Below, in pieces: positions 48,706-63,707 of a DNA stretch of 64,000 bases. Position 1 is the first letter of the stretch. Each line of letters starts with the position of its first letter. Position numbers and translations under genes: made by a program. The notes below the pieces were generated by a model. That model was not told the origin of the DNA. It ran no database searches and saw only the letters and a list, made by a program, of their open reading frames with translations. Location: the IMG/VR virus record IMGVR_UViG_3300021963_000054, positions 40,952 through 104,951 of that record. One strand, 5' to 3'. This stretch comes from a virus.

Positions 48706-50414
48706 TTTTTTTCAAAGCGATAAAATTTAAGAACTTTCTATCCACTGGTAATTACTTCACAGAAATTAATCTGTGTAATAGTACCAACACACTGGTAGTA
48801 GGAACAAACGGCGCCGGTAAGTCTACCTTGCTTGATGCGCTGTGCTTTGTTTTGTTTGGAAAACCATTTCGTTCTATCAATAAACCACAACTGGTAAACT
48901 CAATCAATCAAAAAGATTGTGTGGTTGAATGTGAGTTTAGTATCGGAAGCAAGAATTTTAAGATTGTTCGTGGTATCAAACCAAACATCTTTCAAATTTA
49001 TGTTGATGGTGAAATGTTGAATCAAGATGCGGCTGTAAAAGACTACCAAGAACACCTAGAGAAATTTATTCTCAAACTTAATTATAAGTCTTTCACACAG
49101 ATTGTCATTCTCGGTTCAGCATCTTTTGTGCCATTCATGCAACTATCTGCGGCTGACCGCAGAGCAATCATTGAAGATTTGCTGGACATTCAAATCTTTT
49201 CTACCATGAATAGTTTGTTGAAAGATAAACACTCAATCAATAAAGAAACTGTTCAGAGTAACAAGCATGAATTAGACTTGTGTTCCAATCAACACAAATT
49301 GGTAGAAGAACATACAGAAAAAATCAAAAAGACTACCGATGAATTGATTGTAAGCAAAGAGTTGGAAGTAGCGAATGTTTGGCTTGAGATTGATTTGGTG
49401 CAAACCGAAATTCAATCAATGAACACACAAATTGTAGAGTTGCAAAAAGCAATAGAAGACAAAACTGTGGTGAATGACAAACTCAAAAAATTGAACCAGT
49501 TTGAAACTCAGATTGAAACCAATCTGTCCAAGTATCGTAAAGACATAAACTTTTTCCTAAATAACGATGACTGCCCAACATGCAGACAAAGTATCCAACT
49601 AGAGTTTAAAGATAATCAAGTAAAAGATTTGAATGATAAAGCTGAAAAGTGTACACATGGTTTGTCCAAACTAGAAGCTGACATTCTAGCACAACAAAAC
49701 AGATTGAATGAGATTACCAAAATTTCTAGTGAGATTCAAGTCAAGCAAGTTGCTGTTGCATCCAATAACTCCACTATTGTGGAATTAAATAAGTACATAG
49801 GTAAATTGCAAAAAGAGATAGGAGTATTGTCATCATCCAAGGAAGACTTGTCCTCGGAGACCAATAAACTTCTCGCATTGAAAACACAATTAGAGCAACT
49901 AGAATCCAAAAAGAAATTGTTAATAGAAGAAAAAACATATCTTGAAGCCGCCTCTCTGTTGTTAAAAGATACTGGTATCAAAACAAAAATTATTAAACAG
50001 TATTTGCCTATCATAAACAAGTTGGTAAATAAGTATCTAGCATCGCTGGATTTCTTTGTCAATTTCAATCTTGATGAATCGTTCAAAGAAACAATCAAGT
50101 CACGCCATCGTGATGAATTTAGTTATGCATCGTTTAGTGAAGGTGAGAAACAGAGAATTGATATGGCACTTATGTTGACATGGAGAGCAGTAGCAAAACT
50201 TAAGAATTCTACCAATACTAATTTGTTAATTTTGGATGAAGTGTTTGATAGTAGCCTAGATAATAATGGAACTGAGTACTTGATGACAATTCTACAGATG
50301 CTTGAAGATGTTAATCTATTTGTGATATCACACAAGGGTGACATACTGCAAGATAAGTTCCGAAACTTAATTCGGTTTGAGAAGGTAAATAATTTTTCAA
50401 GGATAGTAAAATGA
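48702..50414 (+). CDS. gp46: Recombination endonuclease subunit gp46 (Rad50-like)
   Basis: 570 residues (T4 560). Walker A 'GTNGAGKST' (residues 34-42), a long coiled coil interrupted by a zinc hook Cys291-Pro-Thr-Cys294, ABC signature 'FSEGEKQRIDMAL', and Walker B 'LLILDEVFDSSLD'. It is the ATPase partner of gp47. The order gp47-gp46 is the standard one. Its stop overlaps the deformylase start. Confidence 0.95.
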   Translation: MIFFKAIKFKNFLSTGNYFTEINLCNSTNTLVVGTNGAGKSTLLDALCFVLFGKPFRSINKPQLVNSINQKDCVVECEFSIGSKNFKIVRGIKPNIFQIYVDGEMLNQDAAVKDYQEHLEKFILKLNYKSFTQIVILGSASFVPFMQLSAADRRAIIEDLLDIQIFSTMNSLLKDKHSINKETVQSNKHELDLCSNQHKLVEEHTEKIKKTTDELIVSKELEVANVWLEIDLVQTEIQSMNTQIVELQKAIEDKTVVNDKLKKLNQFETQIETNLSKYRKDINFFLNNDDCPTCRQSIQLEFKDNQVKDLNDKAEKCTHGLSKLEADILAQQNRLNEITKISSEIQVKQVAVASNNSTIVELNKYIGKLQKEIGVLSSSKEDLSSETNKLLALKTQLEQLESKKKLLIEEKTYLEAASLLLKDTGIKTKIIKQYLPIINKLVNKYLASLDFFVNFNLDESFKETIKSRHRDEFSYASFSEGEKQRIDMALMLTWRAVAKLKNSTNTNLLILDEVFDSSLDNNGTEYLMTILQMLEDVNLFVISHKGDILQDKFRNLIRFEKVNNFSRIVK

Positions 50415-50998
50415 ATGATAATGATATTTTAGTTATTGATACTGGAGCAAAAGCTCCAACCAAAGTTGTAGAAGAACAGATTCTTCCACTGTCTATTTTA
50501 ACAGAAGGTAATCCAATTCTAAAAACACCAGTTGAAGAATTTGATATGTCGCAAGTCATGCAACCAGAAATTCAAAAATTTATTAAGCAGTTGAAGTTGA
50601 CAATGAAAACCTACAATGGTGTTGGACTGTCAGCGAATCAATGTGGTTTTAAGTTTAGAATGTTTGTTATTGGTACAGACCAATTTCAGATGACTTGTAT
50701 CAATCCAAGAATTATTGATGTTGATGGTGAACCAAAACTAATGCGTGAAGGTTGCTTGTCATATCCAGCGTTGTTTGTTGGCGTACCTAGATATGAAGGT
50801 ATTCTTGTACATTACTATGATGAATACTCACAGCCAAAAGAATTGTGGTTGCGTGGTATTACCGCACAATGTTTCCAACATGAATTGGAACATCTTGATG
50901 GTAAAGTATTTCTTGAAAGAGTTAAGCCTCTTGCTATGCAGATGGCAAGAAAACGTCAAACTAAATTGATTAAGAAGATTGTAAGGAAATCAAAATGA
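50411..50998 (+). CDS. def: Peptide deformylase
   Basis: 195 residues. All three deformylase motifs are intact: 'GVGLSANQCG' (from residue 70; normally GxGLAAxQ), 'EGCLSYP' (Cys115, metal ligand) and 'QHELEHLDG' (His157, Glu158, His161). It removes the formyl group from nascent N-terminal Met. Known in marine cyanophages, where it is thought to speed phage or photosystem protein turnover; here no photosynthesis genes are visible. The N-terminal ~27 residues are an extension beyond the core. Overlaps both neighbours by ATGA. Confidence 0.93.
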   Translation: MNDNDILVIDTGAKAPTKVVEEQILPLSILTEGNPILKTPVEEFDMSQVMQPEIQKFIKQLKLTMKTYNGVGLSANQCGFKFRMFVIGTDQFQMTCINPRIIDVDGEPKLMREGCLSYPALFVGVPRYEGILVHYYDEYSQPKELWLRGITAQCFQHELEHLDGKVFLERVKPLAMQMARKRQTKLIKKIVRKSK

Positions 50999-51366
50999 GC
51001 GATATAAAAGTTCAAGAAACAACTGAGTATGAGAGTTGTCTTGATTTTGAGAGTGATGATATCAATGATGTTTCTAAATTTATGGATGGTGAAGAAACAC
51101 AAGAAGAAAAACTTCCTATAGTTGAAGTTGATGATTCGTTGCTTACCAGAGACCAATTCTTCAAGAAGTATTGGAAAGGTATGCCGACTTTTGACCAGAA
51201 TGATAATCCACCTTGGAAACAACTTTATGTTAACTTCCGAAATGAAGAAGATTATCTAGCATTTGCTAAGTTGATTGACCAAGCACTATCAGATAAGAGT
51301 AAAAGTATTTGGTATCCAAAACTTGACGTAGAAGAAAACTCATTGAATCGTTGGATTGTAGAATGA
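50995..51366 (+). CDS. Small phage protein with 'WKGMPxF...KSIWYP' motif
   Basis: 123 residues. An acidic, variable N-terminal half is followed by 'KYWKGMPTFDQNDNPPWKQLYVNFRNEEDYLAFAKLIDQ' (in part) and 'KSKSIWYPKLD'. This C-terminal pattern recurs in phage proteins, free or fused to ParB-like or DNA-modification domains. Its place directly before a TET-associated-type glycosyltransferase fits a DNA-modification accessory, but no activity can be assigned. Coupled to both neighbours by ATGA. Confidence 0.55.
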   Translation: MSDIKVQETTEYESCLDFESDDINDVSKFMDGEETQEEKLPIVEVDDSLLTRDQFFKKYWKGMPTFDQNDNPPWKQLYVNFRNEEDYLAFAKLIDQALSDKSKSIWYPKLDVEENSLNRWIVE

Positions 51367-52268
51367 TTAACCCTAAGTATCCAGTTTATATTATCTCTAA
51401 AGGTCGGCATGAATCCATGTTGACTTCTCGGTCACTCGCTCGTATGAAAGTTCCTCATTACATTGCAATTGAACCACAAGACCTAGACAACTATGAGAAA
51501 GCATTGGATGAATTTAAGATTCGCCCATATGTTACATTGCTAGTTGCGCCATTCAGTAATCATGGCGATGGTCCTGGTCGTGCTAGAAATTGGTGTTGGG
51601 ATCATGCGATTGAAATTGGTGCAGAAAAGCATTGGGTACTAGATGATAACATTTCTGATTTCTACCGTTTGAATCAGAACAAACGATACCGTGTAGAATC
51701 TGGTGCTATCTTCCGAGCCGCAGAAGATTTTGTTGACCGCTTTGAGAATGTGCCAATCTCTGGCTTTCAGTATCGTTTCTTCATTGCACCAAATTCAAAG
51801 TATCCTCCTTTCGTAACTAACACACGAATCTATTCTTGTTTGCTTATCTCTAATGATTGCAAACATCGTTGGCGTGGTAGGTACAATGAAGATACTGATA
51901 TCTGTCTCCGCGTATTGAAAGATGGTGATTGCACTATTCAATTCAATGCATTCTTGCAAGGTAAAGCGGCTACACAAACAGTTAAGGGTGGTAACACCGA
52001 AGAATTCTATCATAAAGAATTTGCTGACCAAGACGAAAACTTTAAGAAGACTGGTTACAACAGTAGTGGCACAATCAATAAGTCTCAGATGCTTGCAGAT
52101 ATGCATCCAGATGTTGCAAGAGTTGTTTGGCGTTATGGTCGTTGGCATCATTATGTTGACTATAATCCATTCAAGGTAAACAAACTGCGAATGAAAGCTG
52201 ATGCTGTAATTCCAGAAGGCAACAACGAATATGGAATGAAGTTGATTCGTAATTGGAAAGCAGATTGA
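51363..52268 (+). CDS. TET-associated-type glycosyltransferase (TAGT family)
   Basis: 301 residues from the ATG at 51363 (ATGA overlap); the TTG at 51351 is less likely. 'YPVYIISKGRHESMLTSRSLARM', 'VPHYIAIEPQD', 'GPGRARNWCWDHA' and 'KHWVLDDNISDFYRL' are the conserved blocks of the TAGT glycosyltransferase family, linked in phages to sugar addition on oxidised pyrimidines in DNA. The LDDN motif probably binds the metal/nucleotide sugar. No TET/JBP-type oxygenase is found in this window, so the acceptor may be made elsewhere in the genome or be different. Confidence 0.8.
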   Translation: MINPKYPVYIISKGRHESMLTSRSLARMKVPHYIAIEPQDLDNYEKALDEFKIRPYVTLLVAPFSNHGDGPGRARNWCWDHAIEIGAEKHWVLDDNISDFYRLNQNKRYRVESGAIFRAAEDFVDRFENVPISGFQYRFFIAPNSKYPPFVTNTRIYSCLLISNDCKHRWRGRYNEDTDICLRVLKDGDCTIQFNAFLQGKAATQTVKGGNTEEFYHKEFADQDENFKKTGYNSSGTINKSQMLADMHPDVARVVWRYGRWHHYVDYNPFKVNKLRMKADAVIPEGNNEYGMKLIRNWKAD

Positions 52269-53122
52269 TGAGTATTGTTGATGAAATAGGCAAAGAGAGT
52301 CTAAAGCGGTATCTTGAAAACTGTGCTAAGGTTGCAGACATAGATATTGAGGCGGCATTCAAAGTCACATTGAATTGTATGAAAGCGCATGATGGCGCAA
52401 TCATACCAGATGATGATATGCGTCAAATGAAAGACCTTGAGAACAGATGGTATGCATCATTGGAAACAGGAACGCCAGACTATTCTGTTTACTCTGATGC
52501 TTATTATTTCTGCGAAGTGTGGATGTGTTGGACAAAATACTCTAGAAGGTATCTCAAAGAAATCAATGCGCCAAAGTCTATGTTTGGTAAAAGTATAGTT
52601 GAATACATTGGTAATGTTGACAATGTGGTTGACTTGGGATGCGGTTTCGGTTATACTACAGTTGGTATGAAAGAATTGTTTCCCAACTCCAATGTCTATG
52701 GTACAAATCTAAAAGATAGTTACCAGTACAAGATGGCAACAGAGTTGGGTGACAAACACAATTTCAAAATCATTGAGAATCTTACTCAAGTTGAAAAGCC
52801 AGGAACAAGTTTGTTTTTTGCTTCCGAGTACTTTGAACACTTTGACAGACCGATTGAACATTTGATTGATGTGATTGAACAAGGCTCACCAACTTATATG
52901 TTGATTGCTAACACATTCAACGGAAGAGCCATTGGTCACTTCAATCAATACAAAGATTGTACCGAAGTCTATGATGGAAAACAAATGGGAAGATTGTTCG
53001 GAAAAACACTCAGAAAATATGGATACGAAAGTGTTAACACAGATTGTTGGAATAATAGACCAGCTTTTTGGCAGAGAAAAGATAGTTGTTTTTTAACAAC
53101 AGAGAACTTTAGTAATACTTGA
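52268..53122 (+). CDS. SAM-dependent methyltransferase-like protein
   Basis: 284 residues from the ATG at 52268, sharing the last base of the upstream stop (TGATG). Residues ~105-125 contain 'VDNVVDLGCGFGYTTVGMKELFP' (in part), a class I SAM-binding motif, followed by 'SNVYGTNL' and 'SLFFASEYFEHFDRP'. The N-terminal ~100 residues are a separate helical part. The substrate is unknown; co-translation with the TAGT enzyme suggests a shared DNA- or sugar-modification role. No DNA methylase catalytic motif (DPPY or PCQ) is seen. Confidence 0.65.
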   Translation: MSIVDEIGKESLKRYLENCAKVADIDIEAAFKVTLNCMKAHDGAIIPDDDMRQMKDLENRWYASLETGTPDYSVYSDAYYFCEVWMCWTKYSRRYLKEINAPKSMFGKSIVEYIGNVDNVVDLGCGFGYTTVGMKELFPNSNVYGTNLKDSYQYKMATELGDKHNFKIIENLTQVEKPGTSLFFASEYFEHFDRPIEHLIDVIEQGSPTYMLIANTFNGRAIGHFNQYKDCTEVYDGKQMGRLFGKTLRKYGYESVNTDCWNNRPAFWQRKDSCFLTTENFSNT

Positions 53123-53146
53123 CATTCGTTCTGGTCCTGATATACT
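53119..53146 (+). promoter_or_regulatory. Sigma70-type promoter before the CobT-like gene
   Basis: TTGACA (53119-53124), 16-base spacer, TATACT (53141-53146), in the gap upstream of the ATG at 53172. A 'GATA..TACTTGTATC' element around the -10 is echoed at 57192-57207. Confidence 0.75.
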
Positions 53147-53171
53147 TGTATCTGTAGTTAGAAGGAACATC

Positions 53172-55496
53172 ATGCAGTTTACCCAAGAATCCAAATCTCA
53201 ATTAGCCAAGTTGATGGCTACCGAAAACCTCACCGTTGAACACCGAAAAGTATCTACGGCTTCCTTTAATCTTAAGGACCGTGTTCTTACTCTCCCAATC
53301 TGGAATGATATGTCTGGCGAAATGTATGATTTACTTACCGGGCATGAAGTTGGTCACGCATTAGAAACGCCAGAAGAAGGTTGGCACAATGCCGTCATGG
53401 GCACTGGCAAATTTGATAAGAATTTCAAAAACTTCCTTAATGTGGTTGAAGATGCCCGCATTGAGAAAAAAGTCAAACGCCGTTTTCCCGGCTTGCGCCA
53501 ATCGTTTGTCAAAGCATACGGTCAACTATTAGAAAAAGATTTTTTCGGTATCAAGTATCGTAATGTGAATGCTTTGCCTTTCATTGACCGCTTGAACCTT
53601 TACACTAAAGGTGGTGTCTCCCTCGGCATTCAATTCAACAATGAAGAAACCAAAATGTTAGCCGATGTTGAATCGTGCGAAACGTGGGAAGATGTTGTCC
53701 GTATTACCGAAGCAATTTTTGACTATTCAAAAACCGAACAAAAAGAATTGCAACAAGAAAAAATTCGCCAACTGAATTCATTCTATGATGATGAAGATGG
53801 CGATTATGAAATGGACATGGACAGCAATGATGATTCTTCCAATGATGAAGAAGAAAATCAGAAAGATGGTCAGTCACAAGATGGTGAAACTGAAAAAGAA
53901 TCATCCGATGGTGAAGATACAGAAAAATCTGAATCTGGTAAATCAGATTCCGACTCGGAAGAAACATCAGAAGAACAGCCAGAAAAAAGCAATACCATTG
54001 AACGTGATAAAGAATCACATGATAGTACCAGTGAAAATTCTGACTTTGAACCAGTTTGTGAAACCGATGAAAAGTTTCGTGAAAACGAAAGTCAATTGTT
54101 GGACAGGTCTTGCAAAGAATATCTGTATGTGAATTTGCCAACACCTATCTTTTCAGAAATTCTTACACCATACAAACGTGTGCATGAATTGATGGAAAAC
54201 TTTTGGAATGACCGCCTTGACAATCGTAAAGATATCCAAAATAATTTGCTCCGCGATTTCAAAAACAAGAATGACCGGTATGTTTCTTTGCTTGCAAAAG
54301 AATTTGAAATGCGTAAAGCCGCATCAAAATTCTCTCGCCAAAAAGTTTCTGAGACTGGTGATATTGACGTTAGCCGTATCTATAAATACCAAGTTGATGA
54401 CAATATTTTCCGCAAAGCTACCTTTGTACCAAAAGGCAAATCGCATGGTTTAGTTTTGTTGCTTGACCGTTCAGGTTCAATGCAAAGCAATATGTCTTCA
54501 TCATGGGAACAAATTTTGGTTCTCGCAATGTTTTGCCGCAAAGTGAATATTCCTTTTGTTGTTTATGGTTTCGGTAATGATGATAGTACTTTTCAACATG
54601 ACCATGGTCGTTTTAATCATAGGTCATTTTCAGAAAATGTAAACGAATTGTCTGGTTCGAATGTTTTCTTGCGTGAGTATTTGAATTCTAAAATGAGTGC
54701 AAGTGAATTTACTCGGTGTACCAAAAATATTCTGGCTTTGGCTAGCAGTTATGATTATCGTAATTATCGTAGATTTTCAACACCTAGTTCTGAAACTTTA
54801 TCAAATACTCCAATGACGGAAGCAATGATTGCATTGAAGCCTTTGACAGAACAATTCCGTAAAGTGAACAATCTTGATATTGTTAATACTGTTATCATGC
54901 ACGATGGTGATGCCGACAGAATTGGCGCTGTGGTTGGTGAACGTACTGACTACAATGGTAAATCATATCTTGGAAGAACGGGTATCGGTAACGATACATA
55001 CAACCTTGTGTTGCGTGACAAGAAAAATAAATTTGAAGAATTGATGCGTAGTGAATCTGGTGAATGTCCGGTTCGTGAATCAGTTTTCAACTGGTATCGC
55101 AAAACTACTGGTTCAAAGATTATCGGTTTCTACATTGCTGGTACAGGCAACGGTCTCCGTGCTGGCATTGAACGCCGTTACATCAATGAAAAGGGTGAAA
55201 CTTTGCGTGATGTTTATGATGGCGGTTCCAATGATTCATACTATCAACGTAAAGAAGCGGCTAAACAACTTGCCCAACAAGTCAAAGCGGAAAGATTCAT
55301 AGAATCTAAAAATTTTGGCTACAATAAATTCTTTATTATTCCTGGCGGTGATGACCTTGATGTTGAAAACGAAAGTTTACAAGTTAGTGGTGATGTTACT
55401 GCTGGTAAACTAAAGAGTGCATTTATGAAAATGAATAAGAAGAAACAAGTAAGCCGCGTCCTAGTCAATCGCTTTATCGGCGAAATTGCTGTGTGA
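53172..55496 (+). CDS. CobT-like VWA-domain protein with HEXXH motif
   Basis: 774 residues. An N-terminal domain contains 'LLTGHEVGHALETPEEGWHN', an HEXXH zinc-peptidase-like motif (His58, Glu59, His62). Residues ~200-290 form a very acidic Ser/Asp/Glu linker. The C-terminal half is a von Willebrand A domain with MIDAS 'LLLDRSGSM' (Asp432, Ser434, Ser436). This is the layout of CobT-type proteins that pair with CobS-type AAA+ ATPases, the next gene here. In bacteria CobST with CobN inserts cobalt into corrin; in phages the pair more likely remodels a protein complex, since no CobN is present. Confidence 0.8.
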   Translation: MQFTQESKSQLAKLMATENLTVEHRKVSTASFNLKDRVLTLPIWNDMSGEMYDLLTGHEVGHALETPEEGWHNAVMGTGKFDKNFKNFLNVVEDARIEKKVKRRFPGLRQSFVKAYGQLLEKDFFGIKYRNVNALPFIDRLNLYTKGGVSLGIQFNNEETKMLADVESCETWEDVVRITEAIFDYSKTEQKELQQEKIRQLNSFYDDEDGDYEMDMDSNDDSSNDEEENQKDGQSQDGETEKESSDGEDTEKSESGKSDSDSEETSEEQPEKSNTIERDKESHDSTSENSDFEPVCETDEKFRENESQLLDRSCKEYLYVNLPTPIFSEILTPYKRVHELMENFWNDRLDNRKDIQNNLLRDFKNKNDRYVSLLAKEFEMRKAASKFSRQKVSETGDIDVSRIYKYQVDDNIFRKATFVPKGKSHGLVLLLDRSGSMQSNMSSSWEQILVLAMFCRKVNIPFVVYGFGNDDSTFQHDHGRFNHRSFSENVNELSGSNVFLREYLNSKMSASEFTRCTKNILALASSYDYRNYRRFSTPSSETLSNTPMTEAMIALKPLTEQFRKVNNLDIVNTVIMHDGDADRIGAVVGERTDYNGKSYLGRTGIGNDTYNLVLRDKKNKFEELMRSESGECPVRESVFNWYRKTTGSKIIGFYIAGTGNGLRAGIERRYINEKGETLRDVYDGGSNDSYYQRKEAAKQLAQQVKAERFIESKNFGYNKFFIIPGGDDLDVENESLQVSGDVTAGKLKSAFMKMNKKKQVSRVLVNRFIGEIAV

Positions 55497-55505
55497 CATT
55501 TTTAC

Positions 55506-55545
55506 AACACCACCTATTGACAAGGTGGTGTTTCCCTGTTATAAT
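55506..55545 (+). promoter_or_regulatory. Consensus promoter with -35 in the loop of a perfect inverted repeat
   Basis: AACACCACCT (55506-55515) and AGGTGGTGTT (55523-55532) form a perfect 10-bp stem whose 7-base loop contains TTGACA (55517-55522). TATAAT follows at 55540-55545 after a 17-base spacer. This is a full sigma70 consensus; the hairpin may also weakly terminate the upstream gene. Confidence 0.88.
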
Positions 55546-55579
55546 TGTTTTATTGATTGATTGAAATGGAGTTTATATT

Positions 55580-56761
55580 ATGCGTAAGGTGAATGTTTCT
55601 GCCCGTGAGAAGTTTATTTCTTTGGCTCTTGCTACGGGTAAAAGTGTCTTGAATGTGGAAGATATCTGGTCAATTTGTAATGAAGCCGATTTGAAATATC
55701 CACAATGGTTCACAAAAGATCCAGAAAATCGTGCTGGTCGCGGACTATATAAACTACCAACTAATGTTTCCGTAGTTAATTTGGCTGCCCAAGTATTACC
55801 CATGAAGAAAACCGAATCCGCACCTGTTGCGCCTGTCGCACAAAACCGAATCGCTAATGTATCTACCGACCTTGAGACTGGTAATCTAGTCCCTCAAGTG
55901 TACAAAAATTATGTACCCTTTGGCAACTATGAAGATTTGCTGGCTATCGTAAACAGTAAACAATTCTTCCCCATCTTTATCACTGGTCAATCTGGCAACG
56001 GTAAAACAATGTCCGTTGAACAAGCCTGTGCCAAAGCAAAACGCAAATTCGTTTGTATCTCAATGACACCAGAAACCGATGAAGGCGATTTGCTCGGTAA
56101 CTTTGTTTTGATTAACGGTCAGATGGAATGGCGTGATGGTCCCGTTACTACAGCCGCACGACAAGGTGCCGTTTTGTGTATTGATGAAATTGACTACGGC
56201 GCACAAAACTTGTCCTGCTTGCAACGGGTACTAGAAGGTAAGCCTTTCATGTTGAAGAAAAAAGGTGAGGTTGTTTATCCAGCCGAAGGCTTTACGATTG
56301 TTGCCACTGCAAATACAAAAGGTAAAGGCTCCGAAGATGGTCGCTATATGTTCACCAACGTATTGAACGAAGCCTTCTTGGAAAGATTCTTGAATACTTA
56401 TGAGCAAGAGTTTCCTCCTGTTGCAGTTGAGAAGAAAATCATCAAAAAAGAATTGACCACCGCTGGTCGTACCGATGATGAATTCGCCGAGAAACTTGTT
56501 ACATGGGCTGATGTTATTCGCAAAACATTCTCCGAAGGTGGTGTTGATGAAATTATCTCCACTCGCCGTCTGGTACACATTTGCAAAACATATGGTGTGC
56601 ATGGTGACCGAATGAAAGCGGTATCTTTGTGTTTGAATCGTTTTGATACCGATACCAAAATGTCTTTCCTTGACTTATACACCAAACTTGATGCGCCTGC
56701 CAAAGAAGATCCTGTAAAATCAGTACCGCCATCAAAGTATGAAGAAGAAGTACCATTTTAA
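55580..56761 (+). CDS. CobS-like AAA+ ATPase (MoxR type)
   Basis: 393 residues with a GGAG site 5' of the ATG. The N-terminal ~85 residues look like a helical/winged domain (AREKFISLALATGKSVLNVED). Walker A is 'GQSGNGKT' (residues 136-143), Walker B 'LCIDEID' (Asp202, Glu203), and sensor 1 'IVATANTKGKG'. 'MTPETDEGDLLGNFVL' is a typical CobS/MoxR segment. It partners the VWA protein upstream, and each gene has its own strong promoter. Common in T4-like phages under the name CobS, though the role in infection is not established. Confidence 0.88.
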   Translation: MRKVNVSAREKFISLALATGKSVLNVEDIWSICNEADLKYPQWFTKDPENRAGRGLYKLPTNVSVVNLAAQVLPMKKTESAPVAPVAQNRIANVSTDLETGNLVPQVYKNYVPFGNYEDLLAIVNSKQFFPIFITGQSGNGKTMSVEQACAKAKRKFVCISMTPETDEGDLLGNFVLINGQMEWRDGPVTTAARQGAVLCIDEIDYGAQNLSCLQRVLEGKPFMLKKKGEVVYPAEGFTIVATANTKGKGSEDGRYMFTNVLNEAFLERFLNTYEQEFPPVAVEKKIIKKELTTAGRTDDEFAEKLVTWADVIRKTFSEGGVDEIISTRRLVHICKTYGVHGDRMKAVSLCLNRFDTDTKMSFLDLYTKLDAPAKEDPVKSVPPSKYEEEVPF

Positions 56762-56772
56762 TTAATACGTTT

Positions 56773-56814
56773 ACCACTAAGAGTATTGACTTACTCTTAG
56801 TGGTTTGCTACAAT
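56773..56814 (+). promoter_or_regulatory. Promoter with -35 in the loop of a 13-bp inverted repeat
   Basis: ACCACTAAGAGTA (56773-56785) and TACTCTTAGTGGT (56792-56804) are perfectly complementary; the 6-base loop is TTGACT (56786-56791). After a 17-base spacer, TACAAT (56809-56814) is the -10. Same architecture as at 55506 with a different stem sequence. Confidence 0.85.
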
Positions 56815-56821
56815 TATGAAT

Positions 56822-56844
56822 CTTGAGAACGACCACCTCTCAAG
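56822..56844 (+). promoter_or_regulatory. 5'-leader hairpin before the HTH gene
   Basis: CTTGAGA (56822-56828) pairs with TCTCAAG (56838-56844), loop ACGACCACC. It begins about seven bases after the -10 box, so it would form at the very 5' end of the mRNA, where it could protect the transcript or act as a binding site. Confidence 0.55.
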
Positions 56845-56882
56845 TGTATATCCAAAGTGTGGTTTTATTATGGAGTTTTATT

Positions 56883-57164
56883 ATGTCTAAGATGACTACT
56901 AAAGAAAAAATGCTTGCCGTTTTGAGCAAGACTGATGGTTACAATACCTTCACCACGGCTCAGGCACGGGCACGTTTCGGCATTACTAATGTGTCCGCAC
57001 GTATCAACGAATTGCGTGAAGATGGACATGCAATTTACACCAACAGCAAAACACTTGCTAATGGTCGTAAAATTTCCTTCTACCGCCTTGGTCAGCCAAC
57101 CAAGCGCATGGTTGCAGAAGGCATCAAAGCCCTACGTGCAAAGGGTGTTAGCACTTTTGCCTAA
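56883..57164 (+). CDS. Helix-turn-helix protein
   Basis: 93 residues from the ATG at 56883 with GGAG upstream; the in-frame start at 56823 is in the leader hairpin and rejected. 'KEKMLAVLSKTDGYNTFTTAQARARFGITNVSARINELRE' (in part) is a winged-helix pattern with recognition helix near 'NVSARINEL', then 'HAIYTNSKTLANGRKISFYRL' as the wing. Likely a DNA-binding regulator; the target could be promoters such as its own inverted repeat (inference). Followed by an intrinsic terminator. Confidence 0.7.
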   Translation: MSKMTTKEKMLAVLSKTDGYNTFTTAQARARFGITNVSARINELREDGHAIYTNSKTLANGRKISFYRLGQPTKRMVAEGIKALRAKGVSTFA

Positions 57165-57184
57165 TCCCTAGGCTCTTGCTAAGA

Positions 57185-57222
57185 AGGATGTGATATATAC
57201 TTGTATCACATCCTCTTTTTTA
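57185..57222 (+). terminator. Rho-independent terminator after the HTH gene
   Basis: Perfect 11-bp stem AGGATGTGATA (57185-57195) / TATCACATCCT (57204-57214), loop TATACTTG, then C and a run of T (57216-57221). The loop also resembles an extended -10 (TGATATATA), so a promoter inside the hairpin is possible. Confidence 0.9.
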
Positions 57223-57232
57223 TGGATAAATT

Positions 57233-58048
57233 ATGGAAATAAAAGTTAAAATTGAAGACTTGAAAAAGCACAAATTGTTTGTTGCTACACCAATGTACGG
57301 TGGTATGGCACATGGCATGTATCTTAAGGCTTGCCTTGATTTGCAAGCACTCATGTCCAAATATGGTGTTGAAACACGATTTTCGTTTTTGTTCAATGAA
57401 TCATTAATCACACGGGCTAGAAATTATTTGGTAGATGAATTTCTCCGCTCTGATTGTACCCATCTACTTTTTATTGATTCTGATGTTCACTACAATCCAC
57501 AAGATGTAGTTGCACTCTTAGCACTTGATAAAGAAGTTATTGGTGGACCTTATCCCAAGAAAGCTATCAACTGGAACAACATCGCACTTGCCGCACGTAA
57601 ACATCCAGATTTAGCACCACATGAATTGGAAAATCTTGTTGGTGATTATGTTTTTAATGTCGTTAGAGGCACTCAACAATTCTCTGTGACTGAACCACTA
57701 GAAGTTTTAGAGATTGGTACTGGCTACATGATGGTCAAGCGAGAAGTGTTTCCAATCTTGGAAGAAAAATATCCTCAATTGCGTTACAAACCTGACCACG
57801 TTGGGCAAGCACACTTTGATGGTTCAAGATACATTCATGCATACTTTGATACCGTGATTGATACACTTGATAGTGCAACAGGCGGTGGCTCTGAAAGATA
57901 TCTAAGTGAAGATTATATGTTTTGCCAACTATGGCGCAAAACAGGTGGTTCAATCTACTTGTGCCCATGGATGAAGACACAACATATCGGTACATATCCT
58001 TTCACGGGTAACCTATCTAAGATTGCTGAATTGACAGGAAAATTATAA
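57233..58048 (+). CDS. GT-A glycosyltransferase
   Basis: 271 residues. 'HKLFVATPMYGGMAHGMYLKACLDL' is followed by 'FNESLITRARNYLVDEFLRSDCTHLLFIDSDVHYNP' (in part), where Asp-Ser-Asp is the DxD motif (near residue 82), and 'EVIGGPYPKK'. 'LSEDYMFCQLWRKTGGSIYL' is the acceptor/catalytic end. This is a common glycosyltransferase of T4-like cyanophages; substrate unknown (DNA base, capsid or host surface). It ends one base into the next gene (TAATG). Confidence 0.8.
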   Translation: MEIKVKIEDLKKHKLFVATPMYGGMAHGMYLKACLDLQALMSKYGVETRFSFLFNESLITRARNYLVDEFLRSDCTHLLFIDSDVHYNPQDVVALLALDKEVIGGPYPKKAINWNNIALAARKHPDLAPHELENLVGDYVFNVVRGTQQFSVTEPLEVLEIGTGYMMVKREVFPILEEKYPQLRYKPDHVGQAHFDGSRYIHAYFDTVIDTLDSATGGGSERYLSEDYMFCQLWRKTGGSIYLCPWMKTQHIGTYPFTGNLSKIAELTGKL

Positions 58049-58404
58049 TGCCAAATATCTGGAAAGCACAAATTGATGTTGTAAAAGCATCACAGACTGC
58101 TACTACAGGTGGTCGTAAATTTGACGGAAACAAACTAGAATACGGTTTGATTCCGCCACTTGCCCAACAAGAAATGGTACGGGTTCTTACTTTCGGTGCT
58201 CAAAAATATGAAAGAGACAACTGGAAAAGAGTACCCGATTCCAAACGCAGATACTTTGATGCGTTGGAACGCCATATCTGGGCATGGAAAATGGGTGAAA
58301 CATTAGACCCAGAATCAGGTATACATCACTTAGCGCATGCCATGTGTTGTTTATCCTTTTTGTATGAGCATGATGTTAAGTATTCGCTTGACAATGCTGA
58401 ATGA
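58048..58404 (+). CDS. dATP/dGTP pyrophosphohydrolase-like (MazG-like, former DUF5664)
   Basis: 118 residues. 'GGRKFDGNKLEYGLIPPLAQQEMVRVLTFGAQKYERDNWKRV' (in part), 'YFDALERHIWAWKMGE' and 'ESGIHHLAHAMCCLSFL' are the conserved blocks of the all-alpha family containing phage dATP/dGTP diphosphohydrolases. Acidic and His residues in 'DALERH' and 'HHLAHA' fit metal-dependent nucleotide hydrolysis. In S-2L-like phages relatives support the aminoadenine genome; most T4-like phages with this gene do not show that pathway, and PurZ is not seen here. The gp45 promoter begins inside its 3' end. Confidence 0.75.
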   Translation: MPNIWKAQIDVVKASQTATTGGRKFDGNKLEYGLIPPLAQQEMVRVLTFGAQKYERDNWKRVPDSKRRYFDALERHIWAWKMGETLDPESGIHHLAHAMCCLSFLYEHDVKYSLDNAE

Positions 58405-58416
58405 ATGTTGTATAAT
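58388..58416 (+). promoter_or_regulatory. Full-consensus sigma70 promoter before gp45
   Basis: TTGACA (58388-58393), 17-base spacer, TATAAT (58411-58416). The -35 lies in the last codons of the upstream gene. An imperfect pair (ATTCGC / GCTGAAT) flanks the -35. Confidence 0.88.
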
Positions 58417-58439
58417 TAAATTTTTTTGGAGAGTATATT

Positions 58440-59123
58440 ATGAAATTGTCTAAAGACACCTTGACCGTATTGAAAAACTTTGCCTCTATCAATGATGGTA
58501 TCATGTTCCGTAAGGGTAGCGTATTGCGTACCTGTGATGCGTCTAAACAAGTTTTGGCTGAAACGACAATCAGCGAAACGATTGATGAAGATTTCGGTAT
58601 CTATGATTTGAATAAATTTCTTGCAGTCTTAGGGTTGCATCAAGATAATTCACAGTTGCAAATTGATACATCAACTAAGTCTGCGATTATCAATGACACC
58701 AGTGGTCGTAGTAAAATCACATATCGCATTTGTGATGCTACTATGATTAAGAATGCATCGGATAAATCTGTTAAGATGCCAGAGCCTGAAGTAACTTTCA
58801 ATATCTCTCAAGCAGATTTGGAATTTATCATGCGGTCAGCCGCTACTCTTGTTACTCCTCACATTTCAGTAACATCTGACGGTAGCAAAATCTATGTCTC
58901 AGCACTTGATGACAAGAACACATCTACACACAGCAATCAACTTGAAGTTGGCGTTGGCAATGGTAAGAAATATAAAATGTTGTTTAAGACTGAGAACATG
59001 AAAATGATTCCTGGTTCATACGAGATTTCTATTTCTTTCAAAGGTATTGCACACTTTAAGAACACCACAAAGCCATTGCAATATTGGGTTGCTACAGAAC
59101 TCGGTTCAACCAGCGAAGGTTGA
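58440..59123 (+). CDS. gp45: Sliding clamp gp45
   Basis: 227 residues (T4 228), ribosome site GGAG. 'KLSKDTLTVLKNFASINDGIMFRKGSVLRTCDASKQVLAETTI' (in part), 'DFGIYDLNKFLAVLGL' and 'GSYEISISFKGIAHFKN' are diagnostic of T4-type clamps. It tethers the DNA polymerase and also activates late transcription with gp55, tying late gene expression to replication. It has one of the best promoters in the window. Confidence 0.93.
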   Translation: MKLSKDTLTVLKNFASINDGIMFRKGSVLRTCDASKQVLAETTISETIDEDFGIYDLNKFLAVLGLHQDNSQLQIDTSTKSAIINDTSGRSKITYRICDATMIKNASDKSVKMPEPEVTFNISQADLEFIMRSAATLVTPHISVTSDGSKIYVSALDDKNTSTHSNQLEVGVGNGKKYKMLFKTENMKMIPGSYEISISFKGIAHFKNTTKPLQYWVATELGSTSEG

Positions 59124-59158
59124 TTTGATTTTTTTGAATTTTTTATTATGGAGTTTTT

Positions 59159-60091
59159 ATGCAACATTTATTGTGGACCGAAGCACATCGTCCCAAAACT
59201 ATTGAGGAGTGTATTCTACCAGAACGTCTGAAAAAGCCGTTTCAAGAATATGTAAACTCGGAAAAGATTCCACACCTGTTACTATCTGGCGGTGCAGGTG
59301 TTGGAAAAACTACAGTTGCGAAAGCAATGTGTAATCAGATTGGTGCTGACTACATTATGATTAATGGTTCAGATGAATCGGGCATTGATGTTTTTCGTAC
59401 CAAGATTAAAGACTTTGCATCGTCAATGTCATTCACTGGCGGTCGCAAAGTTATTATCATTGATGAAGCTGACTATCTAAATCCAAACTCAACGCAACCA
59501 GCTTTGCGTAATGCAATGGAAGAATTTGCATCTAACTGTTCTTTCATCTTTACATGTAATTTCAAGAATCGTATTATTGACCCACTACATAGTCGGTGTG
59601 CAGTTGTTGACTTTACATTAAAGAATGATGAAAAGACAAAGATGGCTGGGCAGTTTTTCAAGCGCATCCAGTCAATTTTGCAAAGTGAAAATGTTGAGTA
59701 TGAAGACAAGGTAATTGCTGAATTAGTCAAGAAACACTTTCCCGACTTTCGGCGCATCTTGAATGAGTTGCAACGCTATTCACAGTTTGGTAAGATTGAT
59801 GTTGGTATTCTTGCACAGATTGGTGATATATCAATTGCAGAAATCACCAAGCACTTGAAGAACAAAGACTTTGGTGCAATTCGTAAATGGGTTGCTACTG
59901 CTGACTTTGATGCCGCAACATTGTATCGTAAACTGTATGATAGTCTTTATGAAGTATTGCAACCACAAAGCATACCTCAAGCGGTTATTATTCTAGCCGA
60001 CTATCAATACAAGCAAGCATTTGTTGCTGATGCTGAGATTAACACCGTTGCCTGTTTGACTGAACTTATGGTAAGTGTGGAGTTTGTATGA
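59159..60091 (+). CDS. gp44: Clamp loader large subunit gp44
   Basis: 310 residues (T4 319), TATGGAG site. AAA+ motifs: Walker A 'GGAGVGKTT', Walker B 'VIIIDEADYLN', and 'PLHSRCAVVDF' carrying the SRC arginine finger. Four gp44 with one gp62 load gp45. The 35-base upstream gap is T-rich and holds no clear promoter, so it is probably transcribed with gp45. Confidence 0.95.
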   Translation: MQHLLWTEAHRPKTIEECILPERLKKPFQEYVNSEKIPHLLLSGGAGVGKTTVAKAMCNQIGADYIMINGSDESGIDVFRTKIKDFASSMSFTGGRKVIIIDEADYLNPNSTQPALRNAMEEFASNCSFIFTCNFKNRIIDPLHSRCAVVDFTLKNDEKTKMAGQFFKRIQSILQSENVEYEDKVIAELVKKHFPDFRRILNELQRYSQFGKIDVGILAQIGDISIAEITKHLKNKDFGAIRKWVATADFDAATLYRKLYDSLYEVLQPQSIPQAVIILADYQYKQAFVADAEINTVACLTELMVSVEFV

Positions 60092-60273
60092 GTGATTTTG
60101 AAGTACACCCAATTGGAACATCTACTGAGATTAAATATTCAAGAGAATTAGTTAAAGCAATTGAGCAGATTACGTACCAATATGGAGACGGTATCGTGCC
60201 TAAGTCTGTTTTCAATGCATATTTGAAACTAAAACAACATTATGCGATTCAGATTGCAACAGAAAATCTATGA
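60088..60273 (+). CDS. Small conserved protein in the clamp-loader operon
   Basis: 61 residues, ATGA-coupled to gp44. 'SDFEVHPIGTSTEIKYSRELVKAIEQI' and 'SVFNAYLKLKQHYAIQIATENL' suggest two helices after a short beta hairpin. Similar small proteins occur here in T4-like environmental phages with no known role. Coupled to the membrane protein gene by ATGA. Confidence 0.55.
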   Translation: MSDFEVHPIGTSTEIKYSRELVKAIEQITYQYGDGIVPKSVFNAYLKLKQHYAIQIATENL

Positions 60274-60560
60274 TAATAGATTTATTCAAACCTACTATTG
60301 ACTGGATCAAAGATGACTATCGTTCTAATCGCATTCGTTTTGCTGTTGAGTTGCTGGCTTGGGCTATTAGTATTGGCTGCTCAATCACCATGGCACTCAC
60401 TGTCCCAAGTCCTCCTCTTCTGGCTCTGTATCCTGTGTGGATTGCTGGTTGTGCCATGTATGCTTGGGCTAGTTATACTCGGAAATCATTTGGGATGCTT
60501 GCTAACTATCTATTGTTGACTACCATTGATACAATTGGTTTGTTTAGGATGCTGACATGA
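60270..60560 (+). CDS. Small membrane protein
   Basis: 96 residues with two or three hydrophobic segments: 'AVELLAWAISIGCSITMALTV' (in part, residues ~25-45), 'LLALYPVWIAGCAMYAWASY' (~49-68) and 'MLANYLLLTTIDTIGLFRML' (~76-95). An N-terminal amphipathic stretch precedes them. It is embedded between gp44 and gp62 by ATGA overlaps on both sides. Might anchor replication proteins at the membrane, but this is speculation. Confidence 0.6.
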   Translation: MIIDLFKPTIDWIKDDYRSNRIRFAVELLAWAISIGCSITMALTVPSPPLLALYPVWIAGCAMYAWASYTRKSFGMLANYLLLTTIDTIGLFRMLT

Positions 60561-60940
60561 ACCCATTTGATTATGTAAACCAAATTCTGCAAGGTAAAAA
60601 GCAGTTGATTGTTGATGACTTTACAGAAAAGTCCTATGAGCCATTTCTAGTGAATCGTGCGCTTTCCTACCACAAGGATTGCATCATGTACGCCAACGAA
60701 ATGAATCGTAGGTCTCTCCTAGACAAAAAACTACAGAATGACTATTTACTAAATATAGTTAGGTCCAAGAAAAGACCTTTCAATAAGTGGGTTAAGGCTG
60801 AAAAAAGTGAAGATATAGCATGTGTTAAAGCATACTTCGGTCTGTCCGATTCTAAAGCCCGTGAAGCCTTACGACTACTTAGTGATGAACAAATCCAAGA
60901 ATTAAAAGAAAAAACCGATATCGGTGGATTAAGGAAATGA
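60557..60940 (+). CDS. gp62: Clamp loader small subunit gp62
   Basis: 127 residues, shorter than T4 gp62 (187) as in other environmental T4 relatives. 'NPFDYVNQILQGKKQLIVDDFTEKSYEPFLVNRALSYHKDC' (in part), with 'YANEMNRRSLLDKKLQNDYLLNIVR' and 'KRPFNKWVKAE', is diagnostic. It pairs with four gp44 to load the clamp. Followed after one base by regA. Confidence 0.9.
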   Translation: MNPFDYVNQILQGKKQLIVDDFTEKSYEPFLVNRALSYHKDCIMYANEMNRRSLLDKKLQNDYLLNIVRSKKRPFNKWVKAEKSEDIACVKAYFGLSDSKAREALRLLSDEQIQELKEKTDIGGLRK

Positions 60941-60941
60941 A

Positions 60942-61343
60942 ATGGTCGACTTATCAACCTTTGTTGAGGTAACACTAAACGAACACGATGACTTCTTAAA
61001 AGTAAGAGAAACACTAACCAGAATTGGTGTATCTTCACGTAAAGAGCGGGTTCTATACCAGTCTTGCCACATCTTACACAAACGCGGACAGTACTATATT
61101 GTACACTTCAAAGAACTATTCGCACTAGATGGTAAACCTTCTAGCATCATAGATAACGATATTGAAAGACGGAATGCTATTGCTAAACTATTGGAAGAAT
61201 GGGGTCTAGTTAAGATTGTTAATCCAGAAATTATGGTAGACAAGATTGCTCCAATCCATCAAATTAAGATTATATCTTACAAAGAAAAAGATGAATGGGA
61301 ATTAGTTAGCAAATATAACATTGGAAAGAAATCTCAAGAATGA
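60942..61343 (+). CDS. regA: Translational repressor RegA
   Basis: 133 residues (T4 122). 'FVEVTLNEHDDFLKVRETLTRIGVSSRKERVLYQSCHILHKRGQYYIVHFKELFALDG' (in part) is the characteristic RegA core. It binds ribosome-binding regions of early mRNAs, including clamp and clamp-loader genes in T4. The order gp45-gp44-gp62-regA is conserved. Confidence 0.93.
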   Translation: MVDLSTFVEVTLNEHDDFLKVRETLTRIGVSSRKERVLYQSCHILHKRGQYYIVHFKELFALDGKPSSIIDNDIERRNAIAKLLEEWGLVKIVNPEIMVDKIAPIHQIKIISYKEKDEWELVSKYNIGKKSQE

Positions 61344-61355
61344 TTGAGGTAAACT

Positions 61356-61541
61356 ATGAAAAAAGTGAAAGAAAAAATTACAGAGTTGAAAAACATCTAC
61401 ACTGGTGAGATTGTTTGCACCAGCAATTTGTATGAGAAAAGAGTGGATAGCACAATGACATTTATTCAAGTTTACAAACCGGAAGAACCACAAAGAAAAT
61501 ACTTCGTAAATGGTGCGGCCTTCGTAAAGTTGCATAAATAA
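61356..61541 (+). CDS. Small hypothetical protein
   Basis: 61 residues, preceded by GAGGTAA. 'KKVKEKITELKNIYTGEIVCTSNLYEKR' and 'TFIQVYKPEEPQRKYFVNGAAFVKLHK' suggest a small beta protein, with a pattern seen in T4-like phage genomes but no function. A late-type CATAAATA box overlaps its last codons. Confidence 0.55.
   Translation: MKKVKEKITELKNIYTGEIVCTSNLYEKRVDSTMTFIQVYKPEEPQRKYFVNGAAFVKLHK
61533..61540 (+). promoter_or_regulatory. Late promoter-like box CATAAATA before the structured leader
   Basis: CATAAATA overlaps the end of the 61-residue gene and would start transcripts near 61547, just before the structured region upstream of hsp20. Confidence 0.5.
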
Positions 61542-61546
61542 CTGTA

Positions 61547-61664
61547 CCCACCTTAGGGCTGTTTGATGCTACGGTATAAGGCGTCCGTGTAATTACACCT
61601 CCAACACGATAGTTTGGACCAGTATAAGGTAAGCTGGAGTTACGCCTTCGGGGTAACATTTTTT
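61547..61664 (+). ncRNA. Candidate structured RNA / attenuating leader before hsp20
   Basis: This ~150-base gap (61542-61689) has no gene with a ribosome site. It holds a 12-base palindrome GTGTAATTACAC (61587-61598), a TCCAA/TTGGA hairpin, and the terminator below. AAGGCGT (61578-61584) is perfectly complementary to ACGCCTT (61642-61648), which overlaps the terminator stem, so the two structures exclude each other. It may be a small RNA ending at the terminator or a leader that switches read-through into hsp20. Structure and switching are inference. Confidence 0.45.
61639..61664 (+). terminator. UUCG-capped rho-independent terminator
   Basis: GTTAC-g-CC (61639-61646) pairs with GG-GTAAC (61651-61657) around a cUUCGg tetraloop, with one bulged G, followed by TTTTTT (61659-61664). 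Confidence 0.8.
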
Positions 61665-61689
61665 AACTTGCTTTTAAAAGGAGAACTTT

Positions 61690-62136
61690 ATGACATTAAG
61701 ATTCACACATCTATATCCTTCCGTTGTTGGCTTTGACCGACTACTTGATACATTTGATACTATGCTAACGGAAAAACCTACCACTTTCCCTCCACACAAC
61801 ATCGTTAAGGTTGATGAGAATAACTATCTCGTTGAACTTGCTGTTGCTGGCTTCAATGAAAGTGAAATCACTATTGAGGTGTTGAAGAATACTTTGACAA
61901 TCAAAGGTGAAAAAGAAAACCTTGGTGACGGTAGACAGTATATGCACCGCGGTATTGGCACACGTTCATTTAAGAAAACTGTGACGTTGGCTGATACTGT
62001 GCAAGTTGATGGTGCAAGTTTGGAGAATGGTATTCTTACTGTAAAGTTAGTCAATGTTGTACCAGTTGAAAAATTACCGGTAAAGATTGCTATCAATACT
62101 GTAAGTAAGCCACAACTTCTTCAAGAAAAAGTTTGA
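61690..62136 (+). CDS. hsp20: Small heat-shock protein Hsp20
   Basis: 148 residues with AAAGGAG site. Alpha-crystallin domain: 'FPPHNIVKVDENNYLVELAVAGFNESEITIEVLKNTLTIKGEKE' (in part), 'YMHRGIGTRSFKKTVTLADTV', and 'LENGILTVKLVNVVP' (the GxL motif region). An ATP-independent holdase often found in T4-like cyanophages, presumably aiding protein folding in infection. The leader upstream contains a terminator and may control expression. Confidence 0.93.
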   Translation: MTLRFTHLYPSVVGFDRLLDTFDTMLTEKPTTFPPHNIVKVDENNYLVELAVAGFNESEITIEVLKNTLTIKGEKENLGDGRQYMHRGIGTRSFKKTVTLADTVQVDGASLENGILTVKLVNVVPVEKLPVKIAINTVSKPQLLQEKV

Positions 62137-62151
62137 TTATTACCTAAAAAA

Positions 62152-62189
62152 TCTGCCTTCTTGTGTTATAATAAGCACTTGAAGGCAGA
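62152..62189 (+). promoter_or_regulatory. Extended -10 promoter inside an inverted repeat
   Basis: TCTGCCTTC (62152-62160) pairs with GAAGGCAGA (62181-62189); the 20-base loop contains TGTTATAAT (62164-62172), an extended -10. No good -35 is seen. The right arm would lie at the start of the mRNA of the phosphoesterase gene. Confidence 0.65.
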
Positions 62190-62198
62190 AAGTAAACT

Positions 62199-63083
62199 AT
62201 GAAAATTGCACTAGCATCTGATGTACACCTTGAGTTTGGTGAAATCTCTTTTGAGAATACCGAGAACGCTGATGTTCTTATTCTCTCTGGAGATATTTGC
62301 GTGGCTAGAGATTTGATGAAAAAAGATGATATTGGATTCTTTGATGCGAATGTTCGTTCACAAATTTACCATAAATTCTTTAGTGAATGCGCTGAAAGAT
62401 TTCCGCATGTCATTTATATTATGGGGAACCATGAACACTATAACGGTGATTATCGGCACACTCTTACAACTTTGCGTGATAGGCTGTCTTATATACGCAA
62501 TCTTCATATCCTAGACAAAGATACTTTTGTTCTTGATGATGTAACATTCATCGGTGGTACTTTGTGGACAGATATGAACAAAGAAGATCCAATCACTCTC
62601 ATGCAAATGCCAGGTATGATGAATGACTTCCGTTGTGTGGACAACAGTCACCGCATGGTAAATTTTAAATCATACGAACAGATCCATGGTGTAGACAATA
62701 GAGAAAATCCCATCTTCAAACAACGTGCGGCTCGTTTCACACCAGAAGATGCTGTTGAAGACCATAAGCAAATGATGGACTACATTCGCATTATGATTGA
62801 AGGTAAATGGGACCAAAAGTTTGTTGTTGTTGGTCATCATTCACCAAGCAAACAATCAACACATCCTAGATACAAAGAAGAATTGATTATGAATGGTGGC
62901 TATAGTTCCAATTTGGATGATTTTATCATAGACCATCCGCAAATTAAACTATGGACTCATGGTCATACGCATGAAGACTTTGACTACATGATTGGTAGCA
63001 CAAGAATTGTTTGTAATCCACGTGGTTACATTCGTTACGAAGACCGTGCAGATAGATTTGAACTTAAATTTTTGGAGATTTGA
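62199..63083 (+). CDS. Calcineurin-like metallophosphoesterase
   Basis: 294 residues. Metal-site motifs in order: 'ASDVHLEFG' (Asp9, His11), 'LILSGDICV', 'IMGNHEHYNG', 'VVGHHSPSK' and 'THGHTHED'. It hydrolyses phosphoesters; the substrate is not predictable (nucleotides, RNA ends or others). Distinct from gp47, lacking its capping domain. Own promoter-like element upstream. Followed by a 56-residue basic protein. Confidence 0.85.
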   Translation: MKIALASDVHLEFGEISFENTENADVLILSGDICVARDLMKKDDIGFFDANVRSQIYHKFFSECAERFPHVIYIMGNHEHYNGDYRHTLTTLRDRLSYIRNLHILDKDTFVLDDVTFIGGTLWTDMNKEDPITLMQMPGMMNDFRCVDNSHRMVNFKSYEQIHGVDNRENPIFKQRAARFTPEDAVEDHKQMMDYIRIMIEGKWDQKFVVVGHHSPSKQSTHPRYKEELIMNGGYSSNLDDFIIDHPQIKLWTHGHTHEDFDYMIGSTRIVCNPRGYIRYEDRADRFELKFLEI

Positions 63084-63084
63084 T

Positions 63085-63255
63085 ATGAAACCTGGTCCTA
63101 ACTTTAAAATTAATCGTAGTGTTAAACGCCGTATGGCTACTATGGTTAATCCATTTGAGAGGCATTTGTATAAGAATGCTATGATTCAAGCACAACTTAT
63201 TGGAAACAAGCCTGTTGTGCATGAGAAGAAAAACAAAAACAAAAACGGAGAATAA
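63085..63255 (+). CDS. Small basic hypothetical protein
   Basis: 56 residues from the ATG at 63085; the longer frame from 62992 overlaps the phosphoesterase and is rejected. Very basic (NRSVKRRMATMVNPFERHLYK; a Lys/Asn tail KKNKNKNGE). A nucleic-acid-binding or host-interaction peptide is possible; no family recognised. It precedes the rubrerythrin gene by two bases. Confidence 0.5.
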   Translation: MKPGPNFKINRSVKRRMATMVNPFERHLYKNAMIQAQLIGNKPVVHEKKNKNKNGE

Positions 63256-63257
63256 TA

Positions 63258-63707
63258 ATGTCAGTAACATTAAAAAATCTTGAGAGCGCATTGGCTGGTG
63301 AATCAATGGCTCATATCAAGTATCGGTATTTCGCTAAGATTGCTATGGAAGAAGGGTATGAGGAAGTTGCCAAACATTTTTGGCACACAGCAGACCAAGA
63401 ACTTCTACATGCATGGGGTCATCTAGAATTGTTGATTGGTAAGCCTTCTACCAAAGAATGCTTAGAAAAAGCAATTGAAGGTGAGACTTATGAGTTTACA
63501 GAAATGTATCCACAGTTTCAAGCTATTGCTGAACGTGAAGGTAACATTGAAGCGGCTAAAGAAGCCTATGAGCAAATTGAAGAATCAAAAAAACATGCGG
63601 AACAATTCAAAGCAGTTTTAGCTAAGGCAGAAAAACGATTCAATGCTTTGAAGAAAGTTGAAGAACGCCATGCAAATGCATATAAACAAGTATTGGAGGC
63701 ACTATGA
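63258..63707 (+). CDS. Rubrerythrin diiron domain protein
   Basis: 149 residues. The complete rubrerythrin ligand pattern is present: Glu15, Glu48-x2-His51 ('QELLH'), Glu76-x2-Glu79 ('GETYEF') and Glu109-x3-His113 ('ESKKH'). The four-helix bundle reduces hydrogen peroxide. The C-terminal rubredoxin domain of classical rubrerythrins is missing but is encoded by the next gene, which overlaps by four bases (ATGA). Confidence 0.88.
   Translation: MSVTLKNLESALAGESMAHIKYRYFAKIAMEEGYEEVAKHFWHTADQELLHAWGHLELLIGKPSTKECLEKAIEGETYEFTEMYPQFQAIAEREGNIEAAKEAYEQIEESKKHAEQFKAVLAKAEKRFNALKKVEERHANAYKQVLEAL

Follow-up and report, generated by a model that had tools for sequence, protein, structure and literature searches.

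Composite sites in two intergenic gaps of a T4-like phage

Two intergenic regions of this environmental phage probably function as composite terminator-promoters, in which about 40 bases would both terminate one transcript and initiate the following one, a reading to which we assign a probability of roughly 80%. Its direct basis consists of the sequence itself, its conservation, compensatory changes, the signature of a + strand RNA hairpin and the ordinary terminators that replace these elements in relatives; from these we infer actual termination and initiation, their efficiencies and the use of a sigma70-like promoter by the host. The window, that is, the whole stretch of 64,000 nucleotides analysed here, comprises bases 40952-104951 of a source record of 104,951 bp, a contig which is, judging from its gene content, a T4-like phage, since portal, terminase, gp46/47-like and Hsp20 genes are present. 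The portal protein shares ~50-54% identity with its counterparts in cyanophages, Methylophilales phage Melnitz and Stenotrophomonas phage DLP_6, and a megablast search with window positions 50000-64000 retrieved no near phage record. A freshwater origin is presumed, independently of any tool result.

Almost all genes lie on the + strand. They include a CobT-like gene of a 'peptidase' family (phrog_459, E 5e-186; 53172-55496), a CobS/MoxR-like AAA ATPase gene (phrog_249, AAA_5; 55580-56761) and a gene for a 93-aa winged-helix protein (HTH_39, phrog_4973; 56883-57164), all on that strand. The two gaps flanking the ATPase gene, of 83 and 121 bases, hold sites 1 and 2, respectively. At site 1 (55506-55532, + strand), 9 nt past the stop codon of the CobT-like gene, whose 3' end this hairpin likely serves, a perfect 10-bp stem formed by AACACCACCT (55506-55515) and AGGTGGTGTT (55523-55532) closes a 7-nt loop, ATTGACA (55516-55522), containing the -35 hexamer TTGACA (55517-55522); TCCCTGT stands between the 3' arm and the -10 hexamer TATAAT (55540-55545), and the spacer measures 17 bp. 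At site 2 (56773-56804, + strand), 11 nt past the stop codon of the ATPase gene, the arms ACCACTAAGAGTA (56773-56785) and TACTCTTAGTGGT (56792-56804) form a perfect 13-bp stem whose loop is the -35 hexamer itself (TTGACT, 56786-56791), followed after 17 bp by the -10 hexamer TACAAT (56809-56814), which reads TATAAT in close relatives. Predicted hairpin energies are -11.8 kcal/mol for site 1 and -17.8 kcal/mol for site 2. By sequence both are intergenic sigma70-like promoters (TTGACA-N17-TATAAT and TTGACT-N17-TACAAT), and the stems, loops, spacers and -10 hexamers reported in the initial annotation are exact to the base. The same annotation spoke of two strong promoters; 'strong' is generous for site 2, where each hexamer is one base off consensus.

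According to the mechanism that we propose, a polymerase leaving the upstream gene would transcribe the inverted repeat 9-11 nt past the stop codon, and the RNA hairpin together with a short U-rich stretch would stop part or most of the arriving polymerases. A sigma70 promoter would be laid out on the same DNA, with the -35 in the unpaired loop, the 3' arm and the U-tract making up the 17-bp spacer and the -10 immediately after the hairpin; new transcripts would begin downstream and, starting past the hairpin, could not contain it. An overlap that is regulatory as well as compact, in which holoenzyme bound to the -35 in the loop would block or slow arriving polymerases and so set the frequency of upstream termination, strikes us as a long shot.

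Enrichment of hairpins at promoters

A perfect stem of at least 10 bp surrounds a random hexamer of the contig with a frequency of 0.0005, and among the 32 promoter-like sites of the contig about 0.02 with a -35 in such a loop would be expected, as compared with the two seen. With TTGACA-like hexamers that lack a -10 for comparison, a relaxed scan of the contig found a hairpin at 4 of 32 promoters and 3 of 249 hexamers (Fisher p = 0.004), and family-wide a hairpin enclosed the -35 at 34/251 promoters and 10/1498 such hexamers. Two inverted repeats might have fallen at promoters by coincidence, given that the window holds 15 perfect stems of at least 8 bp, many of them inside genes; set against the expectation of about 0.02, the enrichment at promoters and the covariation of the stems in relatives described below, this explanation retains a negligible probability. 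Conservation with compensatory change, as read from the relatives, is stronger evidence than the argument from chance frequency. A third, weaker case of a -35 in a loop lies outside the window at contig position 9359 (GCCATC-tggttgaca-GGTGGC, then ATTTTTCC).

States of the two gaps in relatives

Relatives were collected with the ATPase as query, which yielded 80 loci, and with a second query from a distant member, which yielded 80 more on partly shared contigs; both gaps were read in the resulting ~130 distinct viral loci (labelled L), many of which are contig fragments. Many of these loci are closely related, so that counts overstate independence; the shuffles used below keep this relatedness, and thinning leaves some of it. 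Three states occur at these two spots: (a) the -35 lies in the loop of a hairpin; (b) a hairpin, in many cases a canonical terminator, is followed by a separate promoter; and (c) the promoter has no hairpin, or a terminator precedes an inserted gene. After thinning to at most 80% identity, 22 regions were of type (a), 23 had an upstream hairpin, 20 had no hairpin by the criteria used and 4 had no promoter. The 22 thinned type (a) regions from the site 1 and site 2 spots carry diverse stems, with the -35 still in the hairpin loop, as exemplified by GCACAGAGTA-ttgact-TACTCTGTGC, GCCAGAATGGT-tgacag-ACCATTCTGGC and AACAGGTGG-gcttgacttt-CCACCTGTT. Judged from the ~130 related loci, this comparison shows the fused layout to be under selection.

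A separate canonical terminator followed by a promoter occupies the site 1 spot in L062, L071, L072, L075 and L083 and the site 2 spot in L067, L142, L149 and L154, and a terminator stands ahead of an inserted gene in L070 and L087. No hairpin was found at the site 2 spot of L030, L155, L159, L161, L169 and L179; since some relatives have none at these spots, the hairpin is not essential. Some site 2 regions scored as having none do carry a hairpin with a longer loop, and there the -35 forms part of the 3' arm (GAGTATGTC...GACATACTC).

Compensatory change and strand signature

Across 13 ungapped sequences of the site 2 stem, 94.2% of cells are paired and 15 are double-change cells, as compared with 5.7 in shuffles, with a covariation of 0.291 versus 0.112 shuffled (0/500). 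Seven of the 13 pairs are invariant and three show double changes, and the loop in this set stays TTGACT or TTGATT. The search of relatives suggested together with the initial annotation was run and bore out its expectation, in that the stems covary while the loop keeps TTGAC and are conserved with compensation. These changes bear on the idea that the repeats are operators binding a dimeric repressor over the -35, which could appeal to the common operator layout of inverted repeats around a -35 and to the HTH gene downstream of site 2. The stem sequences of sites 1 and 2, however, have nothing in common, and the compensatory changes run between relatives and between clades, so we hold operators to be very improbable; a single repressor operator had already been considered unlikely from the difference between the two sites, a judgement that the differences between relatives reinforce.

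The non-Watson-Crick cells of the thinned type (a) stems, read on the + strand, comprise 18 G-U versus 3 A-C, a ratio which differs from that in chance hairpins of the window (1032:891; Fisher p 0.003). Because a G-U on the + strand corresponds to A-C when the other strand is read, and would be mispaired in a DNA cruciform, the excess marks a + strand RNA hairpin, and as a sequence signature it points to a hairpin formed in + strand RNA from upstream transcripts. A cruciform switch, whose extrusion in supercoiled DNA would hide or expose the -35, had been proposed at the outset and would suit the perfect stems of the window with the -35 exactly in the loop. The relatives nevertheless retain T-G pairs, poorly tolerated by a DNA hairpin, and rarely A-C; ordinary terminators replace the composites at these spots, and other composites shift the hairpin to the spacer or to the -10. 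On these grounds a cruciform is scarcely credible.

Terminator quality

Terminator strength was estimated with our own coding of the d'Aubenton-Carafa score, uncalibrated on known terminators of this phage's host. On this scale the forward scores are -22 for site 1 and -15 for site 2, both below the usual cut-off because of the short U-tracts of the window (UUUCCCUG and UUUGCU, that is, UUU followed by C or G), and the reverse scores are -30 and -59. Random segments reach -22 in 0.75% of cases, -15 in 0.3% and 0 in ~0.15%. For comparison, the ordinary-looking canonical intrinsic terminator after the HTH gene (UCUUUUUU, 11-bp stem; 57185-57220, + strand) scores -7. Scores above 0 were obtained for 10 of 100 site sequences in the forward direction and 0 of 100 in reverse, with relatives (L027, L043, L039, L025 and L018) reaching +6 to +22; the stem is followed by TTTTTTTT in L027, TTTTTTT in L043, TTTTT in L025 and TTTT in L018. 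The window hairpins are directional and terminator-like, on the weak side, and with such short U-tracts termination at these sites may be partial.

The same short tracts, as well as the upstream hairpins lacking a U-tract at the site 1 spot of L024, L080 and L088, are what one would expect if the hairpin marked or protected the 3' end of the upstream mRNA, as an exonuclease block or a processing site, without terminating transcription, the overlap with the promoter merely saving space. The U-tract that follows the stem in many relatives and the canonical terminators at orthologous spots argue against this explanation, which we consider unlikely. A terminator-promoter overlap insulating successive units, one of the possibilities first put forward, is well supported by those canonical terminators, the U-tracts and the wobble pairs; the wording 'designed' is not needed.

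Comparison with known systems

The window sites would work like the PeSL ('promoter early stem-loop') cassettes of the T4-type phages RB49 and phi1 (Arbiol et al. 2010 and Comeau et al., both cited in PMC4503421), but their hairpin occupies a register that we did not see in RB49. Common to both are a strong sigma70-like promoter joined to a stem-loop, the short intergenic gaps, the occurrence in T4-like phages and, in some of the relatives of the window phage, the repetition of composites around exchanged genes. In stretches of the RB49 genome that we read directly, covering 107 promoter-like sites, hairpins lay in the spacer at 12 (TTGACAGGGGATCACCGATCCCCTATAAT), around the -10 at 8 and upstream at 10 (mostly canonical terminators), and the only match at the -35 was a doubtful one in a gene region. 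At sites 1 and 2 the hairpin surrounds the -35, whereas the RB49 register is the spacer or the -10, and the RB49 copies resemble each other in sequence, unlike the two copies of the window. Because of this difference in register, and because the terminator function is a predicted one, we do not file the sites as PeSL proper. A loose scan of RB49 and T4 for a -35 in a loop gave chance-like matches. Elsewhere in the relatives, an RB49-like spacer hairpin, TTGACACGGCC-TTCG-GGTCGTGTTATAAT, was observed at L028:7157 and L052:6568.

With the canonical intrinsic terminators of the same phages, the composites share a hairpin right past the stop codon and a U-rich 3' side. Such terminators, which occupy the orthologous spots in L062, L067, L070, L142 and L154, differ in having no promoter in the hairpin and, usually, longer U-tracts. 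In Vibrio phage KVP40, a composite at 34965 (TCGGGTATTGA-caataacaca-TCAATACCCGATAAT) likewise has a hairpin overlapping the promoter -35, in a register between the -35-loop and the spacer forms. Methylophilales phage Melnitz carries a composite (TTGACATTACCCTAGAAATAGGGTATTAT) upstream of the homologous HTH gene, where the spacer is taken up by the hairpin TACCCTA-gaaa-TAGGGTA, an arrangement shared with RB49 and different from site 2. An Rfam scan of window positions 50000-64000 gave no match at the sites or at the leader described below.

Other registers and promoter elements in the contig

Site 3 (62152-62189, + strand), between the Hsp20 and metallophosphoesterase genes, is, by its sequence, a composite of the same type in which the hairpin has shifted to the -10, a register that it has in common with RB49. 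Its stem pairs TCTGCCTTC (62152-62160) with GAAGGCAGA (62181-62189) and then GTG (62163-62165) with CAC (62176-62178) around the -10 TATAAT (62167-62172); the -10 does lie in the loop, as had been annotated, on a stem which is not one perfect stem. No good -35 was found at site 3, only an extended -10 (TGTTATAAT). In the orthologous gaps of L012, L014, L030, L061, L064 and L076 the -10 is also in the loop and the stems differ by clade, with a TTGAC -35 further upstream in L030, L061, L064 and L076. The corresponding gap of L067 contains GTGTGGATG-tttgcc-GCATCCACAC, then TTTTTTT and then TATAAT; L072 and L075 carry the L067 hairpin without the T-run.

Several additional elements were observed. 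At contig position 6999 (window -33952), TTGACA is followed by an imperfect palindrome, GTGCTTATATTATGATATAATAAGCAC, enclosing the -10, with TATAATAAGCACT in common with site 3. The motif T-[TCA]-T-GCC, which frequently falls within a terminator-like hairpin's loop, is found exactly 21 nt before an extended -10 at sites 2 and 3 of L067, L072, L075, L079, L080, L081, L085 and L086, and these might constitute a second promoter class. A TTACC box (56771-56775, + strand) starts 15 nt upstream of the site 2 -35, and TTACC/TTGCC (or ATACC) boxes start 14-15 nt ahead of the -35 in several of the contig's promoters, unrelated to one another (window 44191 and 56786; contig 9359 and 14268, or window -31592 and -26683). 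The motif had 11 matches in 50 promoter clusters, 7 of the 11 at distances of 14-15 nt, and the box is a possible activator site.

A predicted pseudoknot in the HTH leader

The predicted 5' end of the HTH mRNA, CTTGAGA...ACCAC...TCTCAAG...GTGGT, would fold into an H-type pseudoknot (56822-56863, + strand) with stems P1 (56822-56828/56838-56844) and P2 (56832-56836/56859-56863), and GGAG follows at 56872-56875. In 29 sequences, 93.1% of cells are paired, with 46 double-change cells versus 15.3 in shuffles and a covariation of 0.402 versus 0.212 shuffled, strong in both stems, and the pseudoknot recurs at the corresponding position in most of L012-L091 and L107-L179. Since the mechanical pseudoknot score of the window leader by itself was no better than chance, it is this covariation that carries the prediction. 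The leader, comparable to the pseudoknot of T4 gene 32, is a candidate for autoregulation.

Inserted genes and implications of the composites

In five relatives, genes are inserted between the ATPase and HTH genes (L065:1423-2817, L070:9284-10654, L085:1536-2915, L087:9311-10702 and L091:9269-10399). The inserts of L065, L070, L085 and L087 have HNH matches, two of these four with weak GmrSD_N matches as well, and that of L091 gave no Pfam match. Portions of the composite flank the insert as repeats in L065 (33 nt at 85% and 17 nt at 82%), L091 (31 nt at 84%) and L085 (58 nt at 84%). Such repeats would be expected from recombination at the composites, and duplication by other routes may also account for them. 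Repeats around HNH and other inserts would extend the idea of gene-exchange junctions to a large group of environmental phages.

Because separate and fused forms replace each other at the same spot, one can trace how the fusion evolved. A terminator and a promoter could coexist on about 40 bases in that the -35 uses the only pairing-free part of the hairpin, its loop, and finders that treat terminator and promoter signals separately will miss one of them. Were the regulatory overlap to hold true, promoter occupancy would determine, in the course of infection, whether the region is transcribed as one long operon or as separate units.
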